39,188 nucleotides of DNA from Pirellulales bacterium. GTDB lineage: Bacteria > Planctomycetota > Planctomycetia > Pirellulales > S012-138. Position 1 is the stretch's first letter; every line of letters starts with the position of its first letter. The notes beneath the pieces were generated by a model. That model searched no databases and had not been told where the DNA came from. It worked only from the letters and a program-made list of their open reading frames with translations. The position numbers and the translations under genes were made by a program. This document shows, one piece after another, positions 1-39,125 of the stretch. Where the stretch lies: the NCBI GenBank assembly GCA_028066245.1, contig JALCBR010000041.1:1-39188 (forward strand). The letters run 5' to 3'.

Positions 1-66
1 CTGAACTTTTGTTTCGGTTTGTGGGTGTTTTTTGGGGTCCCTTTGATGGTTAATTTTTGGGAATGA
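1..66 (+). CDS. Hydrophobic micro-ORF in repeat copy A (5' end cut off)
   Basis: Read from base 1 the frame gives 21 residues and a TGA stop at 64-66. It starts two codons into the 23-codon ORF of copies B and C. Leu3, Asn4, Gly8, Leu9, Val11, Val15, Pro16, Leu17, Val19, Asn20 and Trp22 are shared with copy B. The replaced residues are mostly Phe, Trp, Cys, Gly or Met, so the peptide stays hydrophobic. Of 21 base differences from copy B, 9 fall in third positions, only a mild bias. The frame has no indel or early stop. Function unknown. It could be a coincidence of the repeat's sequence. Confidence 0.3.
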   Translation: MNFCFGLWVFFGVPLMVNFWE

Positions 67-310
67 GGCGTTTGCGCCACCCCTCTGGAGGATGGAAAAA
101 TTTGACCAATGTCAATTTCGCCCGTACGCGTGAGAGCATGGCCCGGGAAACGGTGCAGCACTTCAATCTCACGTCCACGAAGTGACGGGACCTGCGACGA
201 ACAGAACACCAATCAGAGAGATGTTCTCAAGCGCTTTGTTGAATCTTGTTCTGCTCGCAGTCGGGTGTCGTCCACCATCTCACAGGCGGAACGTCAACGA
301 GATAAGCGAT
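1..310 (+). repeat. Dispersed repeat, copy A (left part cut off by window edge)
   Basis: This stretch is homologous to 10849-11285 and 33255-33668. The left inverted-repeat arm lies outside the window. The right arm is at 98-134 and matches the left arms of the other copies, reverse-complemented, at 36 of 37 bases. Left of the arm, bases 1-66 continue the micro-ORF of the other copies with no indel but only about two-thirds base identity to copy B. Right of it are hairpins at 169-185 (TCAC/GTGA) and 198-257 (CGAACAGAACA pairing with TGTTCTGCTCG through one wobble). The shared sequence ends near the motif GGAACGTCAA at 288-297, about 40 bases from the stop codon of the DAHP synthase gene. Confidence 0.85.
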
Positions 311-339
311 CTAAGTCTTCACCACTTGCACTCCGGCCA

Positions 340-10803: not shown

Positions 10804-10857
10804 GGCAACTGTCAGTAAGGCGTGCTGCCTGTAATACACAGCCCGCGCAACCCTGCT

Positions 10858-10894
10858 CTCAGGCGTACGGGCGAAATTGACATTGGTCAAATTT
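10858..10894 (+). repeat. Left 37-base inverted-repeat arm of repeat copy B
   Basis: Pairs with 11056-11092 at 34 of 37 positions. The core TTGACATTGGTCAA is itself partly palindromic (TTGAC/GTCAA), as is CGTACG. Together the arms enclose 235 bases, the size of a small MITE-like element. Confidence 0.9.
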
Positions 10895-10952
10895 GGGGGT
10901 GTTTCTGGCGAACATGCGCGCTGCCGAACACCATAGGAGGTTGACGGTTAAC

Positions 10953-11024
10953 ATGCTGCTGAACTTAACGTCAGGGTTGCCGGTGATGTTGTCGGTGCCA
11001 TTGCTGGTTAATTGCTGGCTATGA
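10953..11024 (+). CDS. Hydrophobic 23-residue micro-ORF in repeat copy B
   Basis: ATG to TGA, 23 codons. The peptide begins MLLNLTSGLPVML and ends PLLVNCWL. It has no charged residue and is long enough for one membrane helix. A perfect AGGAGG lies at 10935-10940, 12 bases before the ATG, longer than the usual spacing. The same ORF with one changed residue (final Leu to Pro) is in copy C, and a diverged version with the same stop position is in copy A. The ORF lies between the inverted-repeat arms. Small toxic or membrane-active peptides have this look, but I recognise no family and cannot exclude a chance ORF. Confidence 0.4.
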   Translation: MLLNLTSGLPVMLSVPLLVNCWL

Positions 11025-11055
11025 AGCGTTTGCGCCACCCCTCGGGAAGCGGGAA

Positions 11056-11092
11056 AAACTTGACCAATGTCAATTTAACCCGTACGCCTGAG
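11056..11092 (+). repeat. Right 37-base inverted-repeat arm of repeat copy B
   Basis: Reverse complement of 10858-10894 with three mismatches. The equivalent arms in copies A (98-134) and C (33461-33497) carry different mismatches, so the arms have diverged independently while staying complementary. Confidence 0.9.
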
Positions 11093-11111
11093 GGGAATGG
11101 CCGCGGCAATT

Positions 11112-11136
11112 CCATCACGCGTCCACGAAGCGATGG
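11112..11136 (+). other. Conserved small hairpin in the right half of repeat copy B
   Basis: CCATC pairs with GATGG around a loop containing GTCCACGAA. In copy C the same position (33528-33552) pairs GTCAC with GTGAC; one A-T pair is replaced by G-C and an A-C mismatch becomes A-T. Copy A keeps TCAC/GTGA at 169-185. A pair that changes on both sides suggests the fold matters, as RNA or as single-stranded DNA. Confidence 0.45.
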
Positions 11137-11316
11137 AACTTCCGGCGAACAGAACACCCATCACGGAGATGTTCTGGAACGCTTTGTTGATTCGTGTTCT
11201 GCTCACGGTCGGGCGCCGTCCAACACTTCAGCAACCCGAATTCGTCGAGGTTGGCAACGGAACGTCAATAGGAGAAGCTTTCTGGAAACGTCGTACTGAA
11301 GGTTGCGTCTCACCGT

Positions 11317-32547: not shown

Positions 32548-33183
32548 ATGCCATATTCCGTTAAAGAGATTTACTACACCATTCAAGGAGAAGGACGTCA
32601 GGCTGGTCGTCCGGCAATCTTCTGCCGGTTTGCGGGATGCAATCTTTGGACTGGCCTAGAGCAGGACCGTGCCGGTGCGATCTGCGATTTTTGCGACACG
32701 GATTTTGTGGGAACCGATGGCGTTGGCGGAGGCAAGTTCCTGCATGCCGAGCAACTGGCGGATGCTCTCCTCGACAAGTGGCCTAGAAAGTCATCGCAAC
32801 GGCCATACGTCGTGTGCACGGGCGGGGAACCACTGCTGCAGTTGGATGCGGATCTCATCGATGCACTCCATGCCCGTGAGACAATGATTCACGTTGAGAC
32901 CAATGGAACACGCGCATGTCCCGATGGGGTGGATTGGCTGTGCGTGAGTCCTAAAGCCGGAGCGGCCTGCGTTCAACGTGAGGGAGATGAACTCAAGCTC
33001 ATTTTTCCGCAAGCCAACCAAGACCCCGCCGATTGGATCGACCTGCCATTTAAGTACTTTTTTCTTCAACCGATGGATGGCCCTGACTTCGCCAAGAACG
33101 TGCAAGCGGTCACCGACTATTGCCTTGTGCACCCCCAATGGCGTGTCAGCTTGCAATTGCACAAACAATTGGGAATTGCCTAA
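32548..33183 (+). CDS. queE: 7-carboxy-7-deazaguanine synthase
   Basis: QueE is the radical-SAM enzyme that contracts carboxy-tetrahydropterin to 7-carboxy-7-deazaguanine, the third step towards preQ1 and queuosine. The 211 residues begin VKEIYYTIQGEGRQAGRPAIF, the family start. The 4Fe-4S cysteines are C31, C46 and C49: the C-x14-C-x2-C spacing is typical of one QueE branch rather than the classical Cx3Cx2C. TGGEPLLQ and HVETNGT bind SAM and substrate. queC and queD are not in the window, but tgt is. The gene is followed after about 70 bases by repeat copy C. Confidence 0.94.
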   Translation: MPYSVKEIYYTIQGEGRQAGRPAIFCRFAGCNLWTGLEQDRAGAICDFCDTDFVGTDGVGGGKFLHAEQLADALLDKWPRKSSQRPYVVCTGGEPLLQLDADLIDALHARETMIHVETNGTRACPDGVDWLCVSPKAGAACVQREGDELKLIFPQANQDPADWIDLPFKYFFLQPMDGPDFAKNVQAVTDYCLVHPQWRVSLQLHKQLGIA

Positions 33184-33263
33184 AGCACCTGCTCGATTGC
33201 TATTTCGCTCGCCCAGGCGAACTCTGTCAAGTCATCTCTCGATGGGAAGCCACGCACCCTGCT

Positions 33264-33300
33264 CTCAGGCGTACGGGCGAAATTGACATTGGTCAAATTT
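33264..33300 (+). repeat. Left 37-base inverted-repeat arm of repeat copy C
   Basis: Identical to the left arm of copy B and complementary to 33461-33497 apart from three positions. The arms enclose 234 bases. The eight bases left of the arm in copies B and C are also shared (ACCCTGCT), so homology extends slightly beyond the arm and hides any target duplication. Confidence 0.9.
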
Positions 33301-33358
33301 TGGGATGTTTCCGGCGAACATGCGCGCTGCCGAGCGCCATAGGAGGTTGACGGTTAAC

Positions 33359-33430
33359 ATGCTGCTGAACTTAACGTCAGGGTTGCCGGTGATGTTGTCG
33401 GTGCCATTGCTGGTTAATTGCTGGCCATGA
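33359..33430 (+). CDS. Hydrophobic 23-residue micro-ORF in repeat copy C
   Basis: Same ORF as at 10953-11024, differing only in the last residue (Pro for Leu). It has the same AGGAGG 12 bases before the ATG and the same TGA stop. Identity of the whole 88-base block with copy B, beside a more diverged right half, suggests recent spread, gene conversion or selection on this block. Function unknown. Confidence 0.4.
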   Translation: MLLNLTSGLPVMLSVPLLVNCWP

Positions 33431-33460
33431 AGCGTTTGCGTCACTCCCTGGGGGCGGGAA

Positions 33461-33497
33461 AAACTTGACCAATGACAAATTCGCCCGTACGCCTGAG
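33461..33497 (+). repeat. Right 37-base inverted-repeat arm of repeat copy C
   Basis: Reverse complement of 33264-33300 with three mismatches. Two of these differ in place from the mismatches in copy B; the third, near the inner end, is shared. Confidence 0.9.
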
Positions 33498-33664
33498 AAA
33501 TGGCGCGCTGGGAACGCCGCGGCAATTCAGTCACGCGTCTGCGAAGTGACGGGAACTGCCGATGAACAGGACAGAAATCGAGGCTCCAGCCGGTTGCCGT
33601 CCAACACCTCAGCCACATCCGAGTTCGTCAATGCTGGCGACGGAACGTCAACAAGTAAAGCGTT

Positions 33665-34249
33665 CTAGCAGCGCAGACGCTCCAAGTCTGCCAGCCGCCG
33701 ATTTACGTGGTCTTCGCTGGCGATCTCTCCACTGTGCTGCTTGGCGTCAAAGTCGATCGATAGTTCCTCCAAGGCGCCGACGATTTCGCGTTTGTCGCTC
33801 TCGCTGATCCGATCAATGAACAAAACGCCGTCCAGGTGGTCGGCCTCGTGCTGAACAATCCGACTCGGCATGCCCTCCAATTCAACGTTGATTTCTTGCC
33901 CGCGAAGGTCATAAGCGTTCAATCGGATTTGAGCGGGCCGTGTGACGGGCTTATAGACGCCCGGTAGGCTCAAGCATCCTTCTTCCTGCTCGGCTGATCC
34001 TTTGGGGCGGCTCAGCACAGGATTGATAATCACTTGTTGCGCATCAGGTTGCTCAGGATCCCCTGTCTCATTCATGACAAAGAAACGGTACGGCAGGTCC
34101 ACCTGGTTGGCTGCCAGTCCCACGCCTTTGGCTTCATACATCAGATCAAACATCTGATCGATCATCGCACGCAATTCAGCGTCAACCCTCCGTAGCGGCT
34201 TGGAGCGGTGGCGCAATGTCGGATGTGGATATTCGATGATCTTAAGCAT
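33665..34249 (-). CDS. def: Peptide deformylase
   Basis: Removes the formyl group from the N-terminal Met of new proteins at the ribosome. The 194 residues carry all three motifs: GVGLAANQ at 42-49, EGCLSLPG at 90-97 with metal ligand Cys92, and QHEADHLDGVLFID with ligands His134 and His138 and catalytic Glu135. The C-terminus extends about 40 residues past the last motif, as in many longer deformylases. The stop codon lies in the right edge of repeat copy C. No fmt gene is adjacent; the gene diverges from mcsA. Confidence 0.96.
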   Translation of the reverse strand: MLKIIEYPHPTLRHRSKPLRRVDAELRAMIDQMFDLMYEAKGVGLAANQVDLPYRFFVMNETGDPEQPDAQQVIINPVLSRPKGSAEQEEGCLSLPGVYKPVTRPAQIRLNAYDLRGQEINVELEGMPSRIVQHEADHLDGVLFIDRISESDKREIVGALEELSIDFDAKQHSGEIASEDHVNRRLADLERLRC

Positions 34250-34494
34250 AGCGGCAACAACAAGGCTCTAGTAGGTCGGGCATCAAGCCATTGTAAATGC
34301 GTCACACAGTAACGGTAACCCGCCCAGCAGATGGCGAATCCAGATTCCGTACGCCAGAGCCCCCTGTCTGCCCTCGTCGCACGAAAAACGACAGGCCGCA
34401 ATGGCTGGAAAAGCCAGTTTGGTTTATCTTGGCGATTAGGTGGAAGCGCCAGATCCCACAAGGTTCTCAGACTCTTACCTTCCGGCGATTTGCC

Positions 34495-35097
34495 ATGAAG
34501 TGCCAGTATTGCGAGCGTACGGCGACGTTGCACATTACCGAATTGACCGATGGTCAGGTCAAGGAGTTGCACCTGTGCAAGGAGCACGCGCACGAATACC
34601 TGTCTCAAGCGGATGCTGGCGTCCCTCAGCCTACGAGCTCCGCCAGTTCGTTGGCTCACCATCTCACGGTGGGGAACACGGCGGAAGACCTGGCACGGCT
34701 GGACCAGAAAGTTTGCCCAATCTGCGGGATTTCTTTCTATGAGTTTCGCAACTCTGGACGGCTGGGATGCCCGAACGACTACACCTGTTTTCAGCAGGAG
34801 CTTGAAGGCTTGTTGTTGAATATCCACGGCGAGACGAGCCATGTCGGCAAATTGCCTGGTCGTGGGGCCACAGATCTCGCTGAGCACACGCGCTTGATCC
34901 AAATGCGGCGACAGCTCAAGGAAGCCGTGAGTGAGGAAGATTACGAGTTGGCCTCCAAGTTGCGGGATGAAATTCGTGACCTGCGATCGGAATTTCGCGA
35001 GGGACGGCCAACTGAAAGCGAGCCGAAAGCCAAGAAGCCGAGAAAACGGCAAGCGCCGAGGCCAAAACCGCCGGCAGATGAAGGAAGCCAAGATTGA
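34495..35097 (+). CDS. mcsA: Protein-arginine kinase activator (McsA-like, zinc fingers + UVR)
   Basis: McsA activates the arginine kinase McsB and helps it deliver clients to ClpC-type proteases. The 200-residue protein has a first zinc site (Cys3, Cys6, Cys28 and probably His31), a second (Cys74, Cys77, Cys92, Cys98), and a UVR motif at about 133-165 (LIQMRRQLKEAVSEEDYELA), matching McsA layout. The tail is basic and Lys/Pro-rich. The ATG at 34495 places MKCQYC at the start as in the family, though the frame is open from 34297. mcsB follows within 114 bases. A general UvrB/UvrC-motif protein would be the cautious alternative. Confidence 0.88.
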   Translation: MKCQYCERTATLHITELTDGQVKELHLCKEHAHEYLSQADAGVPQPTSSASSLAHHLTVGNTAEDLARLDQKVCPICGISFYEFRNSGRLGCPNDYTCFQQELEGLLLNIHGETSHVGKLPGRGATDLAEHTRLIQMRRQLKEAVSEEDYELASKLRDEIRDLRSEFREGRPTESEPKAKKPRKRQAPRPKPPADEGSQD

Positions 35098-35211
35098 ATT
35101 GCGAGGCGCACGACGAGATTGCTGTCACGCAGGGAAACTTGCTTCGCGCAGTGCCGTGCTCCCAAATTCTGCCGGTTGTGAGCGCAATTCATTCGCCGAA
35201 CGCCTTAACGG

Positions 35212-36414
35212 ATGTGTGTGGGCGAGTACAATTCTGGTAGGCTGAGCGATCCTGTCACTTTGCCCAAACGTTATCAGTTTCGCGCGGATGATCTTGAGCC
35301 GCGCTTTGGCTTTTTTCCGCGGACCAACGCAGTGGACATAAGCGACCTGGCGCAATCGAGCGGAGAATGGCTCAGGGGCGGCGGTCCGGAGTCGGACATC
35401 GTCATCAGTAGCAGAATCCGGCTGGCGAGAAACCTGGCTGAGTATCCCTTTGTCAATCAGGCTGGTCCGGCGGAACGCCATGAGATTGAATCCACGCTTG
35501 AGCAGGCGATTACCGGAATCCGCAAGCCCAAGCTGGAGTATTTCAGTGTCGATGACTTCTCATCGCTTGATCGCCAGTTTTTGGTTGAACGGCAGTTGAT
35601 CAGCCGTGAGCATGCCGAAGGTGAAGGCGCGCGCGGTGTGGCCATTGACGCCAGCGAGCGAATTAGCCTGATGGTTAATGAAGAAGACCATCTCCGCATC
35701 CAAGTGATGCACAGCGGTTTGGATCTGGACGCCGCCTGGAAAGAGATCGACAAAATCGACAACGAGATCGAGCGGCACGTCACCTATGCGTTTGATCAGC
35801 GTTTGGGTTACTTAACGGCATGCCCAACTAACGCCGGAACAGGCATGCGCGTCAGCGTCATGTTGCACTTGCCTGCGGTCGCGCTGACGGAACAGGTGGA
35901 AAAAATCTTCCGCAGTCTGCAAAAGATCAACGTTGCCGTCCGCGGCTTATATGGCGAGGGATCACAGCCTGCCGGGGACTTCTACCAGATCAGCAATCAA
36001 ATCACGCTCGGACGAGATGAAGCCAACCTGATTGGTACCGTCGCCGATGTCGTACCGACGATCATACAATATGAACGCAAGGCGCGCGCGTACTTACAAG
36101 AAGAGAAGCGTGAAGTACTGCATGATCGCATTAGCCGCGCGTACGGGATTTTGCGAAACGCCCAAACCATCACGTCAGAAGAAACGATGCACTACCTTTC
36201 GCGTGTGCGGATGGGCATCAACATGGGCCTGATCAAAGATCTGCAGATCCCCACCGTCAATGAGTTGTTCATTTACACGCAGCCAGCGCATCTGCAAAAG
36301 ATGAGCGGCAGTGAGATGAACAGCGCAAATCGAAATATCGAACGGGCGCGTTACCTACGAGATAACCTCAACGGCGGTGAGGCACCATCCGGAAACGGTG
36401 GAGACCTTATCTAA
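35212..36414 (+). CDS. mcsB: Protein-arginine kinase
   Basis: McsB phosphorylates arginine side chains, marking proteins for ClpCP. The 400-residue frame shows WLRGGGPESDIVISSRIRLARN (phosphagen-kinase start), VNEEDHLRIQ, and GYLTACPTNAGTGMR with the conserved Cys204. GDFYQISNQITLG and MHYLSRVRMGINMGLI mark the C-terminal half. Near the end the RDxxRA motif, reported as the phosphoarginine-binding allosteric site, reads RNIERA (374-379). The ATG at 35212 adds about 50 residues before the homologous part; a GTG at 35332 (before DISDLAQSSGEWL) is a plausible true start. Neither has a clear ribosome binding site. No ctsR or clpC is adjacent. Confidence 0.92.
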   Translation: MCVGEYNSGRLSDPVTLPKRYQFRADDLEPRFGFFPRTNAVDISDLAQSSGEWLRGGGPESDIVISSRIRLARNLAEYPFVNQAGPAERHEIESTLEQAITGIRKPKLEYFSVDDFSSLDRQFLVERQLISREHAEGEGARGVAIDASERISLMVNEEDHLRIQVMHSGLDLDAAWKEIDKIDNEIERHVTYAFDQRLGYLTACPTNAGTGMRVSVMLHLPAVALTEQVEKIFRSLQKINVAVRGLYGEGSQPAGDFYQISNQITLGRDEANLIGTVADVVPTIIQYERKARAYLQEEKREVLHDRISRAYGILRNAQTITSEETMHYLSRVRMGINMGLIKDLQIPTVNELFIYTQPAHLQKMSGSEMNSANRNIERARYLRDNLNGGEAPSGNGGDLI

Positions 36415-39028: not shown

Positions 39029-39125
39029 CGGAAGTGCATGGGAATCGAACCCACCGGCGACAAGGTTGACTCGCCGCCCGCCGGTTTTGAAGACCGGGGC
39101 CGCCACCAGGCGTACAAGCACTTCC
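39029..39125 (-). tRNA. selC: Selenocysteine tRNA (tRNA-Sec, anticodon TCA)
   Basis: Read on the minus strand, a 97-base tRNA with the marks of bacterial tRNA-Sec. The acceptor stem has 8 base pairs (GGAAGTGC with GCACTTCC), followed by discriminator G. The anticodon stem is CCGGT/ACCGG around loop CTTCAAA, giving anticodon TCA (39088-39090), which reads UGA. There is a long variable arm with six pairs (CGGCGA/TCGCCG) and a T-arm GTGGG-TTCGATT-CCCAT. CCA is not encoded. It implies that this organism decodes UGA as selenocysteine; selA, selB and selD are not in the window. Confidence 0.96.

Follow-up and report, generated by a model that had tools for sequence, protein, structure and literature searches.

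A high-copy IS630-type repeat in a Pirellulales draft genome, with an inner cassette probably rewritten by ectopic gene conversion

A repeat present at about 100 copies in the genome of a Pirellulales bacterium is most plausibly a non-autonomous MITE of the IS630 family whose inner cassette has been rewritten by ectopic gene conversion, a reading to which, taken whole, we assign a probability of about 0.75. As an IS630-type MITE the element would resemble known ones; its unusual part is an inner cassette built as arm, centre and arm. We describe it from the window, a stretch of 39,188 nucleotides that is the entire contig C63 of a 186-contig, 4.94-Mb draft genome, and from copies elsewhere in the same genome; all of the evidence comes from this one draft assembly.

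Copies in the window and across the genome

The window holds three copies of the repeat, all on the forward strand and with the single layout that a first-pass annotation of this DNA had described. Copy A (1..314) has its left side cut by the contig start and retains the remainder of the centre, the right arm (about 97-141), the outer right part and a right terminus ending in ...GCGATCTAA. Copy B (10840..11285) has both arms, the centre, the outer right part and an eroded right terminus; its left inner arm (10858..10894, forward) and right inner arm (11056..11092, reverse) pair at 34 of 37 bases (92%), exactly as first reported. Copy C (33180..33668) is complete from its left terminus CTAAAGC to its right terminus GCGTTCTAG, and its inner arms (33263..33301, forward, and 33460..33498, reverse) pair like those of copy B. 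The AGGAGG motif and a 23-codon frame occur in both copies whose left half lies inside the window. Although the copies themselves are real, their earlier limits needed adjustment: the one begun at 33255 begins at 33180, and the one begun at 10849 is without a left terminal repeat.

All three copies are intergenic, with DAHP synthase (aroF), a sulfatase, rsmH, a radical-SAM protein and def as window neighbours by Pfam; the earlier remark that they sit beside housekeeping genes holds for aroF, rsmH and def, but the gene called queE is by Pfam a radical-SAM protein. The relatives of the window's rsmH are planctomycete MAGs (Planctomycetaceae, Rhodopirellula, Thermoguttaceae), which makes a place in Pirellulales likely. 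Adjoining def, a UVR-motif protein is followed by an ATP:guanido phosphotransferase (34297-36414, forward), an McsA/McsB-like pair. The window also encodes a tRNA-Sec (39030-39125, reverse; Rfam 71.5 bits against a gathering score of 47), which suggests that the host planctomycete has selenoproteins.

The 23-codon frame (10953..11024, forward, in copy B) had been singled out as a tiny ORF, and its status as a conserved gene is not supported. Of 45 copies, 34 retain the ATG and 11 have lost it, and a 2-bp indel splits the copies, affecting about half of them. Minor-allele frequencies by codon position are.121/.032/.130, so that second positions are the least variable, and this periodicity is not significant (p = 0.095).

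Searches of the host draft with a 26-base arm pattern gave 204 matches (104 and 100 by strand), and a 28-base pattern gave 205 (105 and 100), with 0 in the control in each case. The guess that three copies in one contig imply very many in the genome was therefore sound, and the contrary outcome, only three copies with no shared ends, is replaced by about 100 copies with common termini. Across 395 further Pirellulales genomes the 28-base pattern had 0 matches, the repeat was absent from the viral contigs searched, and the GTDB contig collection, where records of the host or its close relatives may be missing, held no exact arm match. In the sampled copies, contig ends are frequent within the cassette (consensus 84-334) and absent from the outer parts, which makes the repeat a likely cause of the fragmentation of the draft assembly. 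Such ends lie, for example, at window position 1 and in L035, L036, L038-L041 and L045-L047.

True ends and IS630 parentage

The ends of the element were mapped over 1.39 Mb, with 30 copies aligned in proper orientation. Homology extends beyond both arms, by about 80 bp on the left and by some 85-195 bp on the right. Left termini of the aligned copies follow YTAGAGCRCC..., read YTAGAGCRCCTGTCCGATTGCTGTTCCG, and right termini ...GCGCTCTAR, such that both ends are TA-type (YTAR), with no conserved sequence outside them. The 37-bp arms are not the ends of the element but form an inverted repeat inside it, with the terminal repeats placed about 80 bp or more further out. Mapping the true ends also settles the earlier doubt that homology past the right arm and a missing transposase do not fit a simple insertion element: that homology is real and belongs to the transposon's outer half. 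Element sizes are about 420 or 530 bp, with shorter copies stopping near consensus 420 and longer ones at 529; a few short copies, about 110-170 bp, are without the cassette. The longer copies look composite, as if two MITE units were joined: after the first right terminus a second unit starts with CTCGAGCGC, which resembles a left terminus (about 389-450 of the 529-bp consensus).

Matches to DDE_3 (PF13358) in the host genome are broken up. A 607-bp IS630 (PF13358) relic on C16 is bounded by CTAGAGCGACTCTTTGATTGCTGTTCCG and GGAAAAACGCTCTAG, and its left end matches the MITE consensus at 23 of 28 bases by direct count. A second relic, C166:5654-6038, joins a MITE-type left terminus, pieces of an IS630 ORF and an IS right terminus, and further IS630 fragments lie on C60, C69, C83, C121, C145 and C170. 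IS630 relatives 1006-1039 bp long, with CTAGAGC ends, occur in other Pirellulales. As to the earlier remark that no transposase is visible, no intact IS630 was found in the data searched, and the host genome holds decayed relics with similar termini.

Terminal inverted repeats common to the repeat and to the C16 and C166 relics place it in the IS630 family (Tc1/mariner), and its short length (420-530 bp), its roughly 100 copies and the lack of a supported transposase or other gene mark it as a MITE. The first impression of a MITE-like element was right in this respect, and the alternative raised with it, fragments of a known insertion sequence, applies to the outer ends, which are IS630-type, but not to the inner cassette, which had no match in anything searched. 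Judging from the termini, an IS630 transposase would have spread the element in trans, inserting it at YTAR sites, and would since have decayed in the host genome.

TA (YTAR) stands at both ends of copies with unconserved flanks, and no empty site was found: a search by synteny at def and rsmH gave none, synteny not being conserved, and among interrupted genes three spanning frames were found, none convincing. No copy clearly interrupts a gene. Of 50 copies with both flanking genes scored, 23 lie between convergent genes, 23 between tandem genes and 4 between divergent genes. The terminal TA falls inside a neighbour's stop codon in 20 of 60 copies; in copy C both terminal TAs fall in the stop codons of convergent genes (32548-33183, forward, and 33665-34249, reverse). 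YTAR sites outside elements and not inside long ORFs lie at such stops in 535 of 2010 cases (27%). A special role at stop codons was rejected because the observed fraction is close to this background, and target choice together with tolerance is enough to account for the placement.

Variation in the inner cassette

Conservation is uneven along the element. The majority base has a mean frequency of.82 in the left outer part,.96 in the left arm,.895 in the centre,.94 in the right arm and.83 in the right outer part, and the corresponding mean pairwise distances are.30,.066,.129,.092 and.28; in the spacer beside the left arm the distance is.29. Distances in the two outer parts correlate with each other (+.32) and not positively with those of the centre (-.20 and -.26), which indicates that the cassette and the outer parts do not have one common history. 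LD in the cassette falls with distance (rho -.18, p =.001), dropping already within 10-25 bp, and 16 of 40 cassette sites are transversions, whereas the outer parts have no LD and nearly all of their sites are transitions, with one transversion in each part. All four gametes occur in 347 of 378 site pairs. The cassette pattern carries the marks expected of recombining older variants and the outer pattern those expected of independent decay.

The cassette is also found in both orientations. Among 72 scored copies, drawn from about 1.95 Mb in stretches mostly chosen around copies so that such proportions describe the sample and not the whole genome, 10 cassettes were inverted and 62 normal, and the inverted copies do not form a clade (p =.245). 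The clearest case pairs copy C with a copy on C16 (about 51.3-51.5 kb): the 162-bp centre and both arms are identical (cassette 33263-33498), private variants are common to the pair in both arms, and the cassettes are oppositely oriented between outer parts that are 38% and 32% diverged. Another two pairs, with centre distances of.012 and.018, have exchange tracts that extend into one outer part.

Ectopic gene conversion and its alternatives

We infer that ectopic gene conversion rewrites the cassettes, with the arms supplying the homology. A break, perhaps in the hairpin of the arms, would be repaired from another copy; because inverted arms offer homology in either orientation, such repair could make cassettes alike as well as turn them around. 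The outer parts, which are more diverged, would mostly decay on their own. Two copies paired in inverted register would be homologous along the arms and nowhere else, and the tract would then be confined as it is between C16 and copy C. In Escherichia coli, SbcCD and RecA are reported, in the excerpted account, to control rearrangement at an interrupted palindrome (PMC3315005). Repair of this kind may by analogy act on the element, and a search for SbcD gave only a partial match, below the cut-off.

Conversion alone does not predict the uneven conservation within the cassette, where a variable spacer adjoins a conserved arm. Arm positions are almost invariant, each arm contains TTGAC-N4-GTCAA, and singleton alleles per site amount to.14-.25 in the arms against.65-.72 in the outer parts, with the spacers near the outer level. 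Arms and centre might instead have come under purifying selection after exaptation, as protein-binding sites, structured RNA or an intergenic terminator, with conversion secondary; the rarity of divergent flanks (4 of 50) fits such a role, as does a strong arm-to-arm fold (z about -13). We nonetheless hold this to be unlikely. The arms account for the fold signal, the stop-codon association is near that of tolerated YTAR sites, and selection leaves unexplained an identical, flipped cassette within diverged outer parts. That the arms are kept by base pairing was rejected for want of surplus covariation between them (altWC 36 against 39.7 expected by chance). A structured RNA in the centre alone was likewise set aside, its fold not being significant and Rfam giving nothing significant for the repeat in the window. 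Selection on the arms may act alongside conversion, and these data cannot separate the two.

Short-read assembly that mixed about 100 similar cassettes could also generate mosaics, identical cassettes and inversions, and the contig ends that fall in the cassette (consensus 84-334) and in none of the sampled outer parts would suit such an artefact, as would arms that are long near-identical stretches. This account seems to us distinctly improbable: LD decays at 10-25 bp, a scale well under the k-mers normally used; final k-mers are commonly longer than the arms (37-46 bp); and the C16/C63 pair has private variants in common in both arms.

The 10 inverted copies, and the one pair in which the exchange tract stops at the arm ends, would be expected if a dedicated recombinase acted site-specifically at the arms, inverting and exchanging the cassette. 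We give this little credence, since other tracts pass an arm into the outer part, no other genome searched contains the arm, and for the resolvase and integrase genes present in the genome no clear or consistent linkage to copies was found.

A second, nested transposon with the arms as its terminal repeats is also very unlikely. The arms are inverted and 37-46 bp long, isolated arms occur rarely (e.g. C45:137389), and a few short copies have no cassette, all of which would suit it; yet full cassettes are always at the same place in the IS630-type shell, the data showed no transposase whose ends resemble the arms, and the isolated arms are few and maybe deletion remnants. The arm at C45:137389 (L051:2389), which is without a partner and lies shortly upstream of a frame resembling penicillin acylase by eye, is possibly one such remnant.

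Relation to known systems

The outer shell has a close counterpart in RUP of Streptococcus pneumoniae, which is proposed, in the excerpted account, to be mobilised by IS630-Spn1 (PMC2229807). As described there, RUP likewise has about 100 intergenic copies and termini in common with an IS630-family element, and its TA target is the one that the TA-type ends suggest here; the case for IS630-Spn1 rests on the same arguments, common termini and TA target choice (PMC2229807). RUP differs in being 107 bp long against 420-530 bp here, and an inner inverted-arm cassette is not described for it in that excerpt (PMC2229807); in the present genome, moreover, only decayed IS630 is found. Correia repeat enclosed elements of Neisseria are also high-copy bacterial MITEs, and are reported to undergo inversion (cited in PMC10969869, seen in excerpt); compared by literature description, the difference is that here the inverted unit is the inner cassette, set against the outer ends of its own element, and that copies appear to exchange cassette sequence. 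REP, BIME and REPIN sequences, as outlined in partial accounts, are similarly high-copy, intergenic and palindromic, and are set apart by size and termini, the unit here being much longer with TA-type, IS630-like ends, whereas REP and REPIN are built from palindromes of 20-40 bp linked to a RAYT transposase.

We tentatively raise a further idea, itself rather doubtful, that the cassette is a self-perpetuating unit: breaks provoked by its hairpin would be repaired from any of about 100 copies, in either orientation, which would rewrite and flip the cassette and keep it alike after the transposon has died. If this is true, similarity of the cassette across the genome outlives the transposon that spread it. 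With about a hundred copies in one genome, the outer parts and the cassette give separate records, the first of transposon decay and the second of probable ectopic conversion, and inverted repeats may promote both the homogenisation and the inversion that they undergo.
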